From Actinotalea subterranea (GTDB taxonomy: Bacteria; Actinomycetota; Actinomycetes; Actinomycetales; Cellulomonadaceae): a stretch of 64,000 nucleotides of DNA. Made by a program: the position numbers and the translations under genes. Positions within the stretch are counted from its first letter, which is position 1; each line of letters opens with the position of its first letter. The stretch covers positions 310,001 through 374,000 of the forward strand of contig NZ_VTTP01000002.1 of NCBI RefSeq assembly GCF_008364845.1. The letters run 5' to 3'. Below, piece by piece: positions 3 to 5,199 of the stretch. The notes under the pieces were generated by a model. It made no database searches, was not told where the DNA came from, and saw only the letters and a list, made by a program, of their open reading frames with translations.

Positions 3-950
3 GAGATCGCACCCCTCGTCCTCGTGACAGGTGGTGAGGCGCTCCTGGCGGAGAGAGCGGTCGAGCGGGTCCTCGGCCAGGCGCGCGAGCAGGACCCGTC
101 CGTCGAGGTCACTCGCCTCGAGGGTCCCTCCTACGAGGCCGGGCGGCTCCAGGTCGCGACGAGCCCCTCGCTCTTCGACGAGGCCCGCGTGGTCGTGCTC
201 ACCGACCTGCAGGCCGCGACCGAGCAGGCGCTCGCCGACGTCACGGAGTACGTCGCGGCGCCGGCGCCCGACGTCGTCCTGGTGCTCCAGCACGGGGGCG
301 GTGTCCGGGGCAAGCGCACGCTCGACGCGATCCGGGCCGCCGGTGCCCTGACGGTGGCGTGCGACCCGGTCAAGCGGGACGCGGACAAGTCGGCGTTTGC
401 GGTGGCCGAGCTCCGCAGGGCCCGGCGCAAGGCCGAGCCCGCTGCGCTGCGCGCGCTCGTGGAGGCATGCGGCGCGGACCTGCGCGAGCTCGCGGCGGCG
501 TGCCAGCAGCTCGCCGCCGACACGACCGGGACCGTGACCCTCGAGGTCGTGACCCGCTACTACGGGGGCCGCGTCGAGGCGACGGGTTTCCGCGTGGCCG
601 ACGCCGCGGTCGAGGGACGGGCCGGGGAGGCCGTCGCGCTCCTGCGCCACGCGGTCGCCACGGGCACGGATCCCGTGCCGCTGGTCGCCGCGCTGGCGGC
701 GAAGCTCCGCACCCTGGCCAAGGTCGGTGCAGCGCGTGGTCGCGGGCTGGACCCTGCGCGGGACCTGGGTCTCGCGTCGTGGCAGGTGGACCGCGCCCGC
801 CGGGACCTGTCCCGATGGACCCCCGAGGCGCTCGCCGACGCGATCGCCGCCGTCGCCCAGGCCGATGCCGAGGTCAAGGGCGCCGGACGCGACCCCGTCT
901 TCGCGATCGAGCGCGCGGTGCTGCGGGTCGCCTCAGCGGTGCGACCCTGA
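3..950 (+). CDS. holA: DNA polymerase III subunit delta (5' partial)
   Basis: Clamp-loader delta subunit, which opens the beta sliding clamp during loading at the replication fork. The frame is open from base 3 and reads EIAPLVLVTG, which is the start of the P-loop-like AAA+ fold, so the true start lies upstream of the window; the internal GTG at 24 is not the start. The visible 315 residues cover nearly the whole usual length of about 320-340. Helical clamp-loader features follow, such as DVVLVLQHGGG and the C-terminal collar region with DPVFAIERAVLRVA. It ends 18 bp inside the convergent EAL gene. In actinobacteria holA is normally followed closely by rpsT, so the 3.7 kb between them here is an insertion relative to the usual order. 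Confidence 0.93.
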   Translation, partial: EIAPLVLVTGGEALLAERAVERVLGQAREQDPSVEVTRLEGPSYEAGRLQVATSPSLFDEARVVVLTDLQAATEQALADVTEYVAAPAPDVVLVLQHGGGVRGKRTLDAIRAAGALTVACDPVKRDADKSAFAVAELRRARRKAEPAALRALVEACGADLRELAAACQQLAADTTGTVTLEVVTRYYGGRVEATGFRVADAAVEGRAGEAVALLRHAVATGTDPVPLVAALAAKLRTLAKVGAARGRGLDPARDLGLASWQVDRARRDLSRWTPEALADAIAAVAQADAEVKGAGRDPVFAIERAVLRVASAVRP

Positions 951-1691
951 GGACCTGACCCGCCCGACGTCGAGCACGAGGGCGGGCTCCAGGAGGTTCC
1001 CCTGGACGAGGTCGAAGCCCAGCGTGCGGCACCACGCGAGGTCGTCCGGCGTCTCGACCCGCTCGGCCACCGTCGTCGCGCCGTAACGCCGCGCCGCGTC
1101 CAGGAGTCCCGCGCCGTGCGCGCGAAGGTCCCTCAGGTCGATCTTCACGAGGTCGACGTCCGGCAGGAGGACCAGCTGGTCCGGCAGCCCGCTGAAGTCG
1201 TCGATCGCGACCAGGTGACCTGCGTCGCGTAGTGCCCGCACCCCGGCGACGACGTCCGGCTCGGCCCGCACCGACTCGACGACCTCGAGACCCATACCTG
1301 CGGGCAGGGGCGGCAGGTCCATCTCGCCCACGAACAAGGTCCGGGTGGCGTTGACGAACACCGGGCCGTGCCCACCGAGCGCCTCGAGCCCGCACCGCAG
1401 CGCCGTGAGGACCACGTGCCGCGTGGCGCGGTCCTGCTCGTCGGCGGGCCACTCGTCGACAGGCGTCGTCGCGACGGCCGAGCGGTACAGGAGCTCGCAG
1501 CCGTAGCGCGCGCCGCCGACCGTGAACACCGTCTGCCGCCCGAGCAGGACGGGGCGGCGCCTGTCCGCCTCGCCCGCCTGACGGTGCGCCGGTGGCGGGG
1601 AGGGCAGGGTGCCGCCCTCGCGCTGACGTGGGACCTCACCGCCGCGCTGCCGTGGGACCCGCGGGGCCCGGTGCGAGCCGTCGGCTCGCAC
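933..1691 (-). CDS. EAL-domain protein 1 (YuxH-like c-di-GMP phosphodiesterase domain)
   Basis: Stand-alone EAL domain of about 200 residues without the HDOD half found in YuxH proteins. Visible motifs in order: CELLYR (EAL signature position), FVNATR (metal Asn), EVVES (metal Glu), AIDDFSG (DDF), VKIDLRDL (Lys), AERVET (general Glu) and VQGNLL (Gln). Most catalytic positions are kept, so hydrolysis of cyclic di-GMP is plausible but not shown. The open frame extends to 1823, but two perfect palindromes lie at 1719-1737 and 1768-1787 inside that extension, and the extension has no conserved sequence. I therefore place the start at GTG 1691 (GTG 1724 or ATG 1781 are alternatives). The gene is paralogous to the EAL gene at 3782-4570 and the two flank an XRE-TPR regulator. 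Confidence 0.7.
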   Translation of the reverse strand: MRADGSHRAPRVPRQRGGEVPRQREGGTLPSPPPAHRQAGEADRRRPVLLGRQTVFTVGGARYGCELLYRSAVATTPVDEWPADEQDRATRHVVLTALRCGLEALGGHGPVFVNATRTLFVGEMDLPPLPAGMGLEVVESVRAEPDVVAGVRALRDAGHLVAIDDFSGLPDQLVLLPDVDLVKIDLRDLRAHGAGLLDAARRYGATTVAERVETPDDLAWCRTLGFDLVQGNLLEPALVLDVGRVRSSGSHR

Positions 1692-1718
1692 CGCACGGGG
1701 TGCAGCGCTCAGAAGCGG

Positions 1719-1737
1719 AGTCACATCAGATGTGACT
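1719..1737. promoter_or_regulatory. Perfect 19-bp palindrome (possible CRP-family or regulator operator)
   Basis: AGTCACATC-A-GATGTGACT is a perfect 9-bp inverted repeat around one base. It sits about 30 bp upstream of the preferred EAL-1 start and on the peptide-gene side of the divergent region. It shares the TGTGA/TCACA words of the neighbouring palindrome at 1768-1787, in opposite orientation. Confidence 0.6.
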
Positions 1738-1767
1738 GCCAGGGCACGTTCGGATGACGTGGCAACA

Positions 1768-1787
1768 GGTGTGATGAACATCACACC
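1768..1787. promoter_or_regulatory. CRP/GlxR-like binding site
   Basis: GGTGTGATG-AA-CATCACACC is a perfect 9-bp inverted repeat. It contains TGTGA-N6-TCACA, the exact consensus spacing of CRP-family sites (GlxR/Crp in actinobacteria). It lies between the EAL-1 gene (minus) and the small-peptide gene (plus), so either could be controlled by cAMP receptor protein. No crp gene is in the window. Confidence 0.6.
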
Positions 1788-1880
1788 GAAATGGCGGGTG
1801 GATCCCTCCGGCTTTGTCAGCAAACGTCGGGCAGATGTGCCCCCGAGGTCCTTGATCGCCGGTGCAAATCAGGAGGAACC

Positions 1881-1901
1881 CTGTCATAGTCGTCATGACA
1901 G
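1881..1901. promoter_or_regulatory. Inverted repeat upstream of the small peptide gene
   Basis: CTGTCAT-N7-ATGACAG is a perfect 7-bp inverted repeat ending 30 bp before the ATG of the peptide gene. It directly follows an AGGAGG word at 1871. It could be an operator or an mRNA hairpin in the 5' leader. It differs from the TGTGA palindromes further upstream. Confidence 0.45.
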
Positions 1902-1931
1902 CCCCCCCGCTGCAGACGAAGGAGAAGGACC

Positions 1932-2063
1932 ATGAACCGCTCGCTCAAGACCCTCGCGGCGACCGCCATCACGCTCAGCCTCGCGGTCGTCGGCCTCCCG
2001 CTGACGTCCGGCGACGGCGGCATGACCATCAGCACCGGGACCTCGGGCTGCTGCCGCCAGTGA
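1932..2063 (+). CDS. 43-aa secreted peptide, candidate signalling pro-peptide
   Basis: Small ORF not of a family I recognise. It begins with a basic n-region (MNRSLK), then a hydrophobic core of about 18 residues ending near GLPLTSG, then a short polar tail ending GTSGCCRQ. This is a signal-peptide-like precursor with a tail of about 16 residues. A strong Shine-Dalgarno (GAAGGAGAAGG) precedes the ATG by a few bases, and a 14-bp hairpin terminator follows 20 bp after the stop, so it is a complete transcription unit. It lies about 300 bp upstream of, and in the same direction as, an XRE-TPR regulator of the type that binds exported and re-imported peptides in Firmicutes. A signalling role is inference; a structural or antimicrobial peptide is also possible. 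Confidence 0.6.
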   Translation: MNRSLKTLAATAITLSLAVVGLPLTSGDGGMTISTGTSGCCRQ

Positions 2064-2082
2064 CCGGTGCCGCGTCGCACGA

Positions 2083-2114
2083 CGAGGGGTTCCCGGCAGA
2101 CCGGGAGCCCCTCG
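2083..2114 (+). terminator. Hairpin terminator after the 43-aa peptide gene
   Basis: CGAGGGGTTCCCGG pairs with CCGGGAGCCCCTCG across the loop CAGA, giving 14 bp with one G-U wobble. It starts 20 bp after the peptide stop codon. No U-tract follows, as is common for terminators in high-GC actinobacteria. Confidence 0.65.
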
Positions 2115-2155
2115 CCGCTGGCCGGGCCGGAGACCCGCGCGTCTGACAGGACCAC

Positions 2156-2290
2156 CGACCCGCCCGCCTGACCGTCCCGCCGACCCGCGCGCCTGACCTG
2201 CCTTTGCCGACCTGCCCACCGGCCCGCGCGCCTGACCGTCCCTGTCGACCATGCGAGCCGACCTGCGCGGCTGACCTGCCCGGACGGTCG
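2156..2290. repeat. Degenerate GC-rich short repeats
   Basis: At least four imperfect copies of a word like CCGACC-GCGCGCCTGACC-TGCC follow each other with variable spacing. The copies are too diverged and irregular to be CRISPR. They separate the peptide terminator from the regulator promoter. Confidence 0.4.
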
Positions 2291-2354
2291 CGGCACGCGC
2301 GTTTTTCACCCCGACGAGTGTGGACAGCCCCTCCCGTCGAGGCCGTGTCATGGG

Positions 2355-2360
2355 TACAGT
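2355..2360 (+). promoter_or_regulatory. -10 box of XRE-TPR gene (leaderless)
   Basis: TACAGT lies 8 nt before the GTG start, placing the transcript start at or next to the start codon. No Shine-Dalgarno is present. Confidence 0.5.
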
Positions 2361-2368
2361 TACGGCTT

Positions 2369-3715
2369 GTGACTGACCTTTCGGAACGGCTGCGTGCGGA
2401 GCGGACCCGTGCTGGGCTCTCGCAGACCGCCCTTGCAGGGGACGACTTCTCGCCGAGCTACATCTCGCTCATCGAGGCGGGGCGGAGGACGCCGACCGAG
2501 GCGGCACTCAAGGTCCTCGCCGGCCGGCTGGGCACCTCGGCGGACTACCTCCGGTTCGGCGACAAGGCGCCGAGCGAGGAGAAGGCCCGCATGGAGATCG
2601 GCTTCGCACGGCTCGCGCTCGCGAACGGAGAGCCTGCGGAGGCCCGTGACCGCCTTCTGGCGCTCGACCTCTCGACGATCGCGCCGCGGCACCACCAGGA
2701 GGCGCTCCACGCCCTCGCTCTCGCCCACGAGGCGCTCGGCGACCTTGACGAGTCCGTCGCCGTGCTGGAGCCCCTGCTCAACGACGCCCGGGCGCACCGG
2801 CGCTCCCTCGAGTCCGCGCGTCTGGCGACCGACCTCGTCGCCTCCTACCACGAGGCCGGCGACCTCGGGCACAGCATCGAGCTCGGCGAGGACGTCCTGC
2901 GGGAGATCGAGGCGGACGGGATCGCCGGTACCGACGAGCACCTGCGGCTCGCCTCGACGGTGCTGTGGTCGTACTACGACCGCGGCGACATGCTCTACGC
3001 GACGCACCGTGCCGGCGAGCTGATCTCGCTCGCCGACGGGCAGGGCTCCATGCGTGGCCGGGGGAGCATCTACTGGAACGCCTCGCTCGTGGCGGAGGGC
3101 CGCGGCGACTTCGCCGAGGCGCGCCGGCTCGCCGAGCGTGCCCTCGCGTACCTGAGCGAGGGCGCCGCGAGCCGTGACGTCCCGCGGCTGCGCCAGCACT
3201 ACGGCTGGCTCCTGCTCCGGACGGACCCGCCCGAGCCCGAGACCGCGCTGGAGCACCTCGAGCAGGCGGCGGTCGACCTGGCTCTCATCGGCTCCGAGGT
3301 CGAGCTCGCGCGCTGCGCGTTCGAGTCGGCGCGTGCCCACCTCATGCTCGGACGCACGGACGTCGCGGACACGCTCGTCCAGGAGGGCCTGGCACGACTC
3401 GACGACAAGGCCGTGTTCGAGGCGTGCGACGGCCACATCGTCCTCGGTGACGTGCGGGCCGCGCTCGGAGACCGCGACGGCGCCCAGGAGGCGTACCGCT
3501 GGGCGGCCGACAGGCTCGCGATGATGTCGGCAGGGCGCCAGTCGGCGACCGTGTGGCGTTCGCTGGCCGACCGCATGCTCGAGTACGGGGACGAGGCGGG
3601 CGCCGTGCGCGCCTACGAGATGGCGCTGCGCGAGGCCGGGATCCGGCCGACGACGTTCCCGCTCGTCACGCCGCGCGCCCTCGCCGCTGGGTTCGGTCAG
3701 GCCGCAGAGGTCTGA
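2369..3715 (+). CDS. XRE-family transcriptional regulator with TPR domain (RRNPP-like)
   Basis: 448-residue regulator. Residues about 3-60 form an HTH_3/XRE DNA-binding domain (LSERLRAERTRAGLSQ, YISLIEAGRRTPT, LAGRLGTSADYL). Residues about 70-430 are tandem TPR helices (repeated A-x-x-A-L-x-x-x-G/LGD patterns, e.g. ALAHEALGDLDESVAVLEP and EAYRWAADRL). This HTH plus TPR plan is that of RRNPP peptide-binding regulators (PlcR, Rgg, PrgX), described mainly in Firmicutes. GTG 2369 is chosen because the HTH starts there and a -10 box sits just upstream; the open frame upstream to 2204 is low-complexity. A short secreted-peptide gene lies upstream and EAL-domain genes lie on both sides, suggesting regulation of second-messenger genes by a peptide or other ligand. 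Ligand and targets are unknown. Confidence 0.85.
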   Translation: MTDLSERLRAERTRAGLSQTALAGDDFSPSYISLIEAGRRTPTEAALKVLAGRLGTSADYLRFGDKAPSEEKARMEIGFARLALANGEPAEARDRLLALDLSTIAPRHHQEALHALALAHEALGDLDESVAVLEPLLNDARAHRRSLESARLATDLVASYHEAGDLGHSIELGEDVLREIEADGIAGTDEHLRLASTVLWSYYDRGDMLYATHRAGELISLADGQGSMRGRGSIYWNASLVAEGRGDFAEARRLAERALAYLSEGAASRDVPRLRQHYGWLLLRTDPPEPETALEHLEQAAVDLALIGSEVELARCAFESARAHLMLGRTDVADTLVQEGLARLDDKAVFEACDGHIVLGDVRAALGDRDGAQEAYRWAADRLAMMSAGRQSATVWRSLADRMLEYGDEAGAVRAYEMALREAGIRPTTFPLVTPRALAAGFGQAAEV

Positions 3716-3781
3716 CCTGCGTCATCGGGGCTGGCGGGCAGGGGGAGCCAGCGCCGTGCTCTCACCACGCGTCGAGCGCCC

Positions 3782-4570
3782 TCAGGCAGGGCGCGGAGCG
3801 GGCACGTGGGTGGGACTGTGGGGCGCCGTACCTCGCGGCGGCGCCCCGGGGCGGTCCACCGGCTGTCGCGGCTGCGGGACCGTCATCGGGTCGGCAGCGA
3901 GCACGCGGGCGGGCTCGAGCAGGTTGCCCTGGAACAGGTCGAACCCCAGGGCCACGCAGTCGTCCCACTGGGCGGCGGTCTCGATCCGCTCGGCGACGAG
4001 CAGCGCGCCATGGCTGCGGGCGAGGTCCAGGAGCCGTGGGCCCCGTGTCGCAAGGTCGCGCAGGTCGACCTTCACGTACGAGGCGTGGGGCAGGATGAGC
4101 AGCTGGCTGTCCAGGCCCACGAAGTCGTCGATCGCGAGCGCGTAGCCCGCGTCGCGCAGGCGACGGACGCCCGCGAGCACCGCGGCGTCGACACGCACCG
4201 TCTCGACGGCCTCGACCACGAGGTGCTCGGGGCTGGGCGGGAGCGGCAGGCGCCCCGTGAGGTACGAGCGCGTGCAGTTGACGAAGGCCGGCCGACCACC
4301 GAGCAGCGGCCCCGGGCCGTTGCGGGTGAACGTCGCGCCGAGCACACGCATGGTCGCCCGGTCCTGGGCCGCGGGTGACCAGCGGTCGACCTTGAGCGCG
4401 TGGTCCTGACCCGTGCGGTAGAGGAACTCGTGGCCGTGGACCGCGCCGTCGGCCGTGAAGATGCCCTGGCGCCCCACGACCCGGGGTCGGGGTCGGGGTG
4501 CCGTGTCGAGCTCGGGGGTCACCAGGCTGAGCAGCGGTTCAGGGGCGACCAGGGGCGCGGCGTTCGGCAC
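3782..4570 (-). CDS. EAL-domain protein 2 (YuxH-like)
   Basis: Second stand-alone EAL domain, paralogous to the one at 933-1691. Motifs in order: HEFLYRT (Glu), FVNCTRS (Asn), VVEAVE (Glu), AIDDFVG (DDF), VKVDLRDL (Lys), AERIET (Glu) and FQGNLL (Gln), so the c-di-GMP phosphodiesterase residues look intact. No HDOD or sensory domain follows. The frame stays open to ATG 4627, but that start lies inside the tandem rpsT terminator hairpins (4585-4644), so I prefer GTG 4570 (GTG 4522 is also possible). It is convergent with the XRE-TPR gene (66 bp between stops). The two EAL proteins differ mainly in their low-complexity N-terminal tails. Confidence 0.7.
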   Translation of the reverse strand: MPNAAPLVAPEPLLSLVTPELDTAPRPRPRVVGRQGIFTADGAVHGHEFLYRTGQDHALKVDRWSPAAQDRATMRVLGATFTRNGPGPLLGGRPAFVNCTRSYLTGRLPLPPSPEHLVVEAVETVRVDAAVLAGVRRLRDAGYALAIDDFVGLDSQLLILPHASYVKVDLRDLATRGPRLLDLARSHGALLVAERIETAAQWDDCVALGFDLFQGNLLEPARVLAADPMTVPQPRQPVDRPGAPPRGTAPHSPTHVPAPRPA

Positions 4571-4584
4571 ACCTGGTGAGACGC

Positions 4585-4620
4585 CGACGGCGTCACCCCA
4601 TGACGCGGGTGACGCCGTCG
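4585..4620 (-). terminator. rpsT terminator hairpin B
   Basis: CGACGGCGTCACCC pairs perfectly (14 bp) with GGGTGACGCCGTCG around an 8-nt loop. It is the second of two hairpins immediately downstream of rpsT on the minus strand. Confidence 0.7.
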
Positions 4621-4621
4621 A

Positions 4622-4644
4622 TCTCACGGACGTCGTCCGTGAGA
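4622..4644 (-). terminator. rpsT terminator hairpin A
   Basis: TCTCACGGAC-GTC-GTCCGTGAGA is a perfect 10-bp stem with a 3-nt loop, ending 9 bp from the rpsT stop codon. With the hairpin at 4585-4620 it forms a tandem terminator separating rpsT from the EAL-2 gene. Confidence 0.7.
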
Positions 4645-4652
4645 GGTGTGGC

Positions 4653-4913
4653 TCAGAGGCTCGCGACCTGCTTGGCGAGCGACGACTTGCGGTTCGCTGC
4701 CTGGTTGGCGTGGATGACGCCCTTGCTCACAGCCTTGTCGAGCTTGGTCGAGGCCGTGCGCAGCGCGGTCGCGGCCGCGTCCTTGTCACCGGCGGCGATG
4801 GCCTCGCGCACACGACGCACATGCGTCTTGAGCTCGGACTTCACCGCCTTGTTGCGGAGGCGCGCGATCTCGTTGGTACGGATGCGCTTGATCTGGGACT
4901 TGATGTTCGCCAC
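4653..4913 (-). CDS. rpsT: 30S ribosomal protein S20
   Basis: Primary 16S rRNA-binding protein of the small subunit. The 86-residue product starts [21 protein letters not shown] and ends [11 protein letters not shown], a full-length S20 with the lysine- and arginine-rich three-helix pattern. GTG 4913 is the start that gives the conserved ANIKSQ N-terminus; the frame upstream is unrelated. It is divergent from lepA across 286 bp and has its own tandem terminator. rpsT next to lepA is the standard actinobacterial arrangement. Confidence 0.96.
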
Positions 4914-5199
4914 GTAGGTTGACTCTCTTGTGCGTTCGCCGAAGCGATCTGACAGGTCGTAGAGGGCGCGTCCAGCGCCGGGACTGGGGCGTGGGGACAC
5001 CCTCGGAGAGGAGCTGGACCAGTGCCCGCCGACCTGGGCGGACACGCGAACGCCGATGATATCAGCCGGGGTCCTGCACGAGCGACCGTGCGGCATCGGC
5101 ACCGGCTCGTGGGACCATGGTGGCACCCGTCGGACGACGGCACGGGTGACCGCAGCCGTCGTCGACCGTCCACCCCACGAGTCCCGGAGCGCGTCCTTA

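Follow-up and report, generated by a model that had tools for sequence, protein, structure and literature searches.

Quorum sensing by linear peptides that act on cytoplasmic receptors with tetratricopeptide repeats (TPRs) is documented mainly in Firmicutes. In the PlcR-PapR and NprR-NprX systems of the Bacillus cereus group (family RRNPP, or RRNPPA), a receptor built of a helix-turn-helix (HTH) and TPRs adjoins a small gene for a secreted-type propeptide, and in the Rgg-SHP and ComR-ComS systems of streptococci the gene for the regulator adjoins one for a short hydrophobic peptide. Here, we describe a locus of Actinotalea subterranea with a similar layout, i.e., a gene for a 43-aa propeptide next to one for an XRE-type HTH regulator with TPRs (XRE-TPR), similar in size to PlcR and NprR. 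It lies in a 64,000-nt stretch of DNA (contig NZ_VTTP01000002.1, positions 310,001-374,000; hereafter the window, whose own numbering is used). The locus is unlike the Bacillus pairs in its actinomycete hosts, in the C-terminal Cys-Cys core of its peptide, near-fixed within the family, and in a promoter palindrome that is shared with a divergent gene for an EAL-domain protein. It is unlike the streptococcal pairs in the longer signal-like part and the Cys-Cys (CC) tail of the peptide.

A 2023 survey gives a small, secreted, adjacently encoded propeptide and a TPR receptor of 250-500 aa as the RRNPP signature, and describes small molecules as the typical signals of Actinomycetota (PMC10075063). 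The accessible portions of that survey and of PMC9765709 treat Firmicutes, and those of PMC4748050, which covers actinobacterial quorum sensing, contain no peptide-regulator pair of this type. Our literature search found CC peptides with XRE-TPR regulators to be undescribed, a provisional statement since preprints and most subscription papers fell outside the search. On balance, we favor reading the locus as a self-regulated, RRNPP-like peptide-signaling unit and as one branch, in Cellulomonadaceae, of a family of XRE-TPR regulators with CC peptides that spans the class. It would work like an RRNPP system, and the likeness we suggest is one of plan and function.

The peptide gene and its regulator

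The peptide gene (1932-2063, plus strand) has a GGAG (1921-1924) 7 nt 5' of its ATG and encodes a basic start, a hydrophobic segment of ~15-20 residues and a polar tail, GTSGCCRQ. A preliminary description of this DNA had noted the 43-codon open reading frame (ORF), its ribosome-binding site (RBS) and its signal-like start, and all are present. When a strict filter for such mini-ORFs was applied to the entire 64-kb window, 1932-2063 was the single ORF to pass, and 34 other pieces of the same genome (41 kb), used as a control, gave one chance CC match. Homologs of the regulator occur in 18/18 genomes of the genus at 65-79% identity, the copy in genome G009 being truncated where its contig stops. 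Two further genera of the family have homologs at 57-58% identity; in a tree, the rows nearest to the regulator are from Actinotalea. All 18 same-genus loci carry the peptide ORF upstream of the regulator with holA before it, and the relatives of the peptide share a tail ending ..GCC[RK]... The place marker rpsT follows the regulator in 16/18; in the remaining two, the available sequence stops within the regulator or shortly past it. The preliminary description had taken the locus for an acquired module. Judged by its constant place in these genomes and its presence in related genera, the pair is instead core to the genus and is no recent acquisition.

A single scan of named species genomes yielded 74 homologous loci, mainly from Cellulomonas and Actinotalea; this set overlaps the same-genus genomes (many contigs are identical), and the two sets are therefore not independent. 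At 72 of the 74 loci, the 600 nt upstream of the regulator contain a mini-ORF (36-61 aa) whose last nine residues include CC, vs. 1.1 loci (max. 4/74) after dinucleotide shuffling, four on the other strand and none in the 600 nt after the regulator. A rule demanding a basic start and an uncharged core was passed by 72/72 of these mini-ORFs. An alignment of 53 peptides shows invariance at M1 and the two Cys only, with the preceding Gly kept in at least 90%, and conservation is concentrated in the tail. The ratio of nonsynonymous to synonymous differences (pN/pS) was 0.26 (pooled pS 0.216, pN 0.056; 29 close pairs), as for a translated gene under purifying selection. Considering its conservation beside regulators, its pN/pS and its uniqueness in the window, these comparisons indicate that the small gene is genuine and belongs with the regulator. 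The same recurrence and pN/pS lend good support to the earlier suggestion of an actinobacterial RRNPP analog. In many relatives, inspection by eye shows short motifs of small residues (ANA, ALA, ASA) before the polar tail, as is typical of sites cut by signal peptidase, and the peptide is probably secreted via its Sec-like signal.

A 14-bp hairpin (2083-2114, plus strand) follows the peptide gene. It had been described as the gene's own terminator; the hairpin stands, while its terminator role is unproven because no T run follows it and a terminator scan of 900-5000 found none.

The regulator gene (2369-3715, plus strand) is co-oriented with the peptide gene, and its 448-aa product, a candidate receptor for the peptide, contains HTH_31/HTH_3 and TPR_12/TPR_2 domains above Pfam cut-offs, in agreement with the HTH and TPR plan first proposed for it. 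Its size and domains fall within those of RRNPP receptors (250-500 aa, TPRs with, except in Rap, an HTH), and as far as testable the locus agrees with the signature given in PMC10075063. An AlphaFold2 (AF2) model (predicted local distance difference test score, pLDDT, 88.7) has an HTH-TPR fold that structure comparison placed near RapI and NprR. In profile comparison, the regulator matched PlcR across the HTH and first TPRs (E 6.8e-9) and also matched the HTH of ComR, while no Rgg model in NCBIfam matched it. W236 and N237 are invariant among 21 diverse regulators. A mechanical ORF list had put the start at TTG 2204, which was rejected since the frames of relatives, mostly 449-458 aa, are too short for it. 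Because these frames are so short and a GTG is kept at the corresponding position in 18/18 same-genus loci, the most likely start is GTG 2369, which lacks an RBS and lies just after the promoter palindrome. The mRNA of the regulator is thus probably leaderless.

A predicted shared operator and the divergent EAL gene

Neither the three operators with their shared sequence nor the divergent EAL gene was part of the preliminary description, and the same holds for the class-wide occurrence of CC-type peptides. The palindrome GTCAY-N7-RTGAC stands at three promoters, those of the regulator, the peptide gene and EAL1, a 263-aa EAL-domain protein encoded on the minus strand (933-1724) divergently from the peptide gene. 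Operator 1 (GTCACATCAGATGTGAC, 1720-1736) contains, in the last half of its minus strand, GTG 1724, with which EAL1 begins. In the peptide promoter, operator 2 (GTCATAGTCGTCATGAC, 1883-1899) covers CATAGT, the putative -10, and in the regulator promoter, operator 3 (GTCATGGGTACAGTTAC, 2347-2363), with one mismatch to the consensus, likewise covers the putative -10. Within 700 nt upstream of the regulator, the 74 loci together hold 150 exact palindromes, compared to 0.45 in shuffled sequences (max. 2). They occur 15-30 nt before the regulator start at 56/74 loci and 30-65 nt before the peptide start at 39 of the 72 peptide-bearing loci. Taken together, the conservation of these sites makes the palindrome the predicted binding site of the regulator.

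A third, far palindrome stands 150-290 nt before the peptide start at 55 loci. At 46 of these, the palindrome's own ATG or GTG begins an open minus-strand frame of 200-320 aa, and 46/46 such frames match the EAL proteins of the window. An exact operator always supplies ATG or GTG at that offset, so that the informative part is the EAL frame open from the codon. The three far-site EAL proteins that were scanned all exceeded the Pfam EAL cut-off, and PF00563 is also matched in the window, with EAL motifs readable in EAL1, which is a likely third target of the regulator. A role of the far operator in looping was set aside in favor of an EAL promoter, although nine loci have the site without an EAL match. 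These EAL proteins resemble the YuxH/CdgJ type in a GRQ..E-L-L-Y-R-like start and the EAL domain, but unlike that type they have no HDOD match in Pfam, and most operator-linked copies have lost the DDF motif. As a separate observation, one locus of group f122 has a GGDEF-EAL protein beyond the peptide, a second link to cyclic di-GMP (c-di-GMP) in a single case.

The A. subterranea genome contains 36 exact palindromes, two of them at this locus; of the 34 elsewhere, 32 look coding and two are ambiguous by a rule of thumb on guanine-cytosine content at codon positions. A genome-wide regulon was rejected, given that exact palindromes outside the locus are mostly coding (32/34; one-mismatch sites were not searched). 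The distribution of exact sites fits a local circuit of three promoters. An initial assignment of the TGTGA repeats to a CRP/GlxR-type site was likewise dropped, as GTCAY-N7-RTGAC tracks the locus instead. A second palindrome (TGTGATGAACATCACA, 1771-1786), between the EAL1 and peptide promoters, resembles CRP/GlxR sites and may be a CRP-like site.

Distribution among Actinomycetes

A profile built from 21 diverse regulators (E 1e-40 or better) detected homologs in 84 of 394 genomes of the class, including that of A. subterranea. This amounted to 110 matches with its own, and 90 of the 109 other places were scanned; the 19 left out were mostly from group f105. Outside groups f21 and f23, a CC mini-ORF with an RBS and a signal-like start lay beside 51 of 73 homologs (f107, 20/21; f24, 9/11; f105, 6/21; f102, 5/5; f121, 3/5; f113, 4/4; f97, 2/3; f114, 1/1; f122, 1/1; f108, 0/1). 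One further locus (L245) had a CC ORF only under a relaxed filter and was left uncounted. The mini-ORF ended exactly in CC at 47 loci. Other residue doublets reached at most 20/73 (RR), and shuffled flanks gave 0-3/73. Beside the more distant, weaker homologs of f21 and f23, the scan found a CC mini-ORF in 0/17. The ends of the peptides vary by family (GCCRxx, FCC, WCC), and the TPR protein is the constant partner.

A one-strand scan had made CC peptides seem confined to the family, a picture that a two-strand scan overturned. CC mini-ORFs are divergent from homologs in f15, f18 and Streptomyces glaucescens (ending GTGCC), downstream of Cellulomonas paralogs (with two in tandem at L212 and L213), and upstream in one Nocardioidaceae metagenome-assembled genome (MAG) and in another MAG of Actinomycetales. 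The first copy at L214 has a CC ORF only before its neighbor. Ten distant homologs had no CC ORF in the two-strand scan (L195, L196, L197, L198, L200, L201, L158, L083, L084 and L085), and L199, a partial match, was outside it. GTCAY-N7-RTGAC recurs in the peptide-regulator gap of the f15 homologs L206-L209. In a tree made by a quick method (127 rows, 80 with CC; several long branches), CC labels changed 13 times vs. 38 in shuffles, and CC loci are therefore clustered but form no single clade.

An f107 regulator was matched by 16 plasmid records and one unannotated record labeled as phage. Of eight such regions opened, one (Nonomuraea gerenzanensis) has next to the regulator a divergent peptide, ending ..DAGCC, that passes the CC filter, and one has a CC ORF 1.9 kb downstream; the rest held nothing credible except for a Streptomyces goshikiensis plasmid, on which WP_008741297.1 (..DIPLCC; found by eye, outside the filter) follows the regulator. 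Altogether, this distribution suggests an overlooked peptide-signaling family in Actinobacteria.

Proposed mechanism and alternatives

By sequence and conservation, the small gene would produce a propeptide with a Sec-like signal, which may be exported and cut to a short C-terminal peptide with a Cys-Cys core. This peptide, or a fragment re-imported by, e.g., oligopeptide permeases, could then bind the TPR superhelix of the adjacent regulator. The genome encodes two oligopeptide-binding proteins of the SBP_bac_5 family, and these could serve uptake. The regulator would bind GTCAY-N7-RTGAC at its own promoter, at that of the peptide gene and, where present, at the divergent EAL promoter. Since each site lies over either a putative -10 or a leaderless start, it most likely represses, and the peptide would relieve or alter repression. 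The predicted outcome is feedback control of the peptide, the receptor and a c-di-GMP-related protein. The Cys pair might be read as free thiols, as a vicinal disulfide or as a mycothiol conjugate. It is conceivable, and to us a rather doubtful extension, that Actinomycetes share a class-wide peptide language of C-terminal vicinal Cys-Cys and XRE-TPR receptors in which the signal is gated by whether the two thiols are free, joined in a disulfide or bound to mycothiol, such that cells sense density and redox together and those of Cellulomonadaceae thereby control a c-di-GMP-related EAL protein.

Several observations weigh against an RRNPP-like signaling unit. The pheromones of many Firmicutes are strain-specific, unlike the near-fixed Cys-Cys core seen here. 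TPR proteins of the LGN type are a better fold match to the regulator than Rap or NprR, a further difference from the Bacillus systems, and AF2 modeling of a read-through chain (no control run) left the peptide unplaced, at a pLDDT of ~33 like that of the linker. The exact peptide-promoter site is found in only the 39 of 72 loci noted above, and 22 of the 73 class loci lack a CC ORF under the filter, including 15/21 in f105. Nine loci (L086, L092-L095, L097-L099 and L154), all in or close to the window's own genus group, have the far site without an upstream EAL match. Finally, DDF is lost in 44 of the 46 operator-linked EAL proteins and kept in two; the output in most species is therefore probably not c-di-GMP hydrolysis, and binding or another use seems probable from these sequences.

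An alternative explanation is that the CC peptide is a secreted effector, i.e., an antimicrobial, metal-binding or redox-active thiol peptide, and the XRE-TPR protein a dedicated regulator that senses something else. The near-fixed CC core would suit an effector, as would the presence of two peptides at some loci (L212 and L213). Moreover, the only clearly non-coding exact operators of the genome are the two at this locus, so that peptide, regulator and EAL gene may be the whole circuit. However, no recurring gene for immunity, modification or export was seen in the neighborhoods inspected, which beyond the family were those of eleven representatives (not a systematic test), and the ends of the peptide change from family to family while its TPR partner is constant. 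We regard an effector as unlikely. Still less likely, and in our view quite improbable, is a small protein that stays in the membrane of the producer cell and acts there, e.g., as a toxin-like or sensor-modulating peptide, while the XRE protein represses it. The length of the hydrophobic segment and the operator at the peptide promoter would agree with this, but the signal-peptidase-like motifs before the tail and the centering of conservation on the tail argue against retention in the membrane. Short ORFs with consecutive Cys codons near their end are known from mycobacteria as polycysteine leaders, and the peptide ORF, likewise short, actinobacterial and with CC close to its stop codon and a strong hairpin right after it, could be a cysteine-responsive leader in which stalling at the two Cys codons controls read-through past the hairpin into the regulator gene; this is very improbable, as the ORF, unlike those leaders, has an RBS and a signal-like N-terminus that is kept along with the residues around CC, a separate, conserved palindrome marks the regulator's own promoter, and the peptide, while upstream in cis in Cellulomonadaceae, lies after the regulator or in divergent orientation to it in many other families.

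Returning to CC peptides as signals, if this is what they are, actinomycetes would possess a large, unread signal set marked by CC at or close to the C-terminus. Partners would be predictable, in one family along with operator and target, and communication among Actinobacteria by linear peptides would become directly testable with short synthetic peptides.

Other features of the locus

The preliminary description had placed the locus between holA and rpsT, and the pair is indeed there, together with two minus-strand EAL-domain genes. Gene order and sequence, without a family search, were used to name holA (24-950), rpsT (minus strand) and lepA, the latter two beyond EAL2. EAL2 (3782 to about 4522, minus strand; predicted start) has no visible operator before it. 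EAL1 and EAL2 are related to each other and flank the pair, and EAL2 is at this place in few same-genus loci only. A riboswitch or other known RNA was dropped as a candidate since an Rfam scan near the locus gave nothing credible, the top score (BjrC68, 21.5 bits) being far below the gathering score of 39. The gap between the hairpin and the regulator promoter (2134-2286) is filled with imperfect 39-nt direct repeats that are 64-74% alike.

A few loci elsewhere in the class have features of their own. On the S. goshikiensis plasmid (L310, 4583-5090), two small hypothetical proteins, the first ending in CC, follow the regulator and adjoin a BTAD-type regulator. L317 is a partial regulator homolog on an unverified, phage-labeled contig from human feces, and no CC ORF was found on it. 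At L232, L236, L238 and L239, the opposite strand carries, in addition to the divergent peptide of the locus, a second, longer CC-ending ORF of secreted type ~150-320 nt past the regulator. The f113 loci L285-L288, from genomes of 1.5-2.2 Mb, have a different 17-bp palindrome, CTT[TC]AC-N5-GTAAAG, in the peptide-regulator gap.
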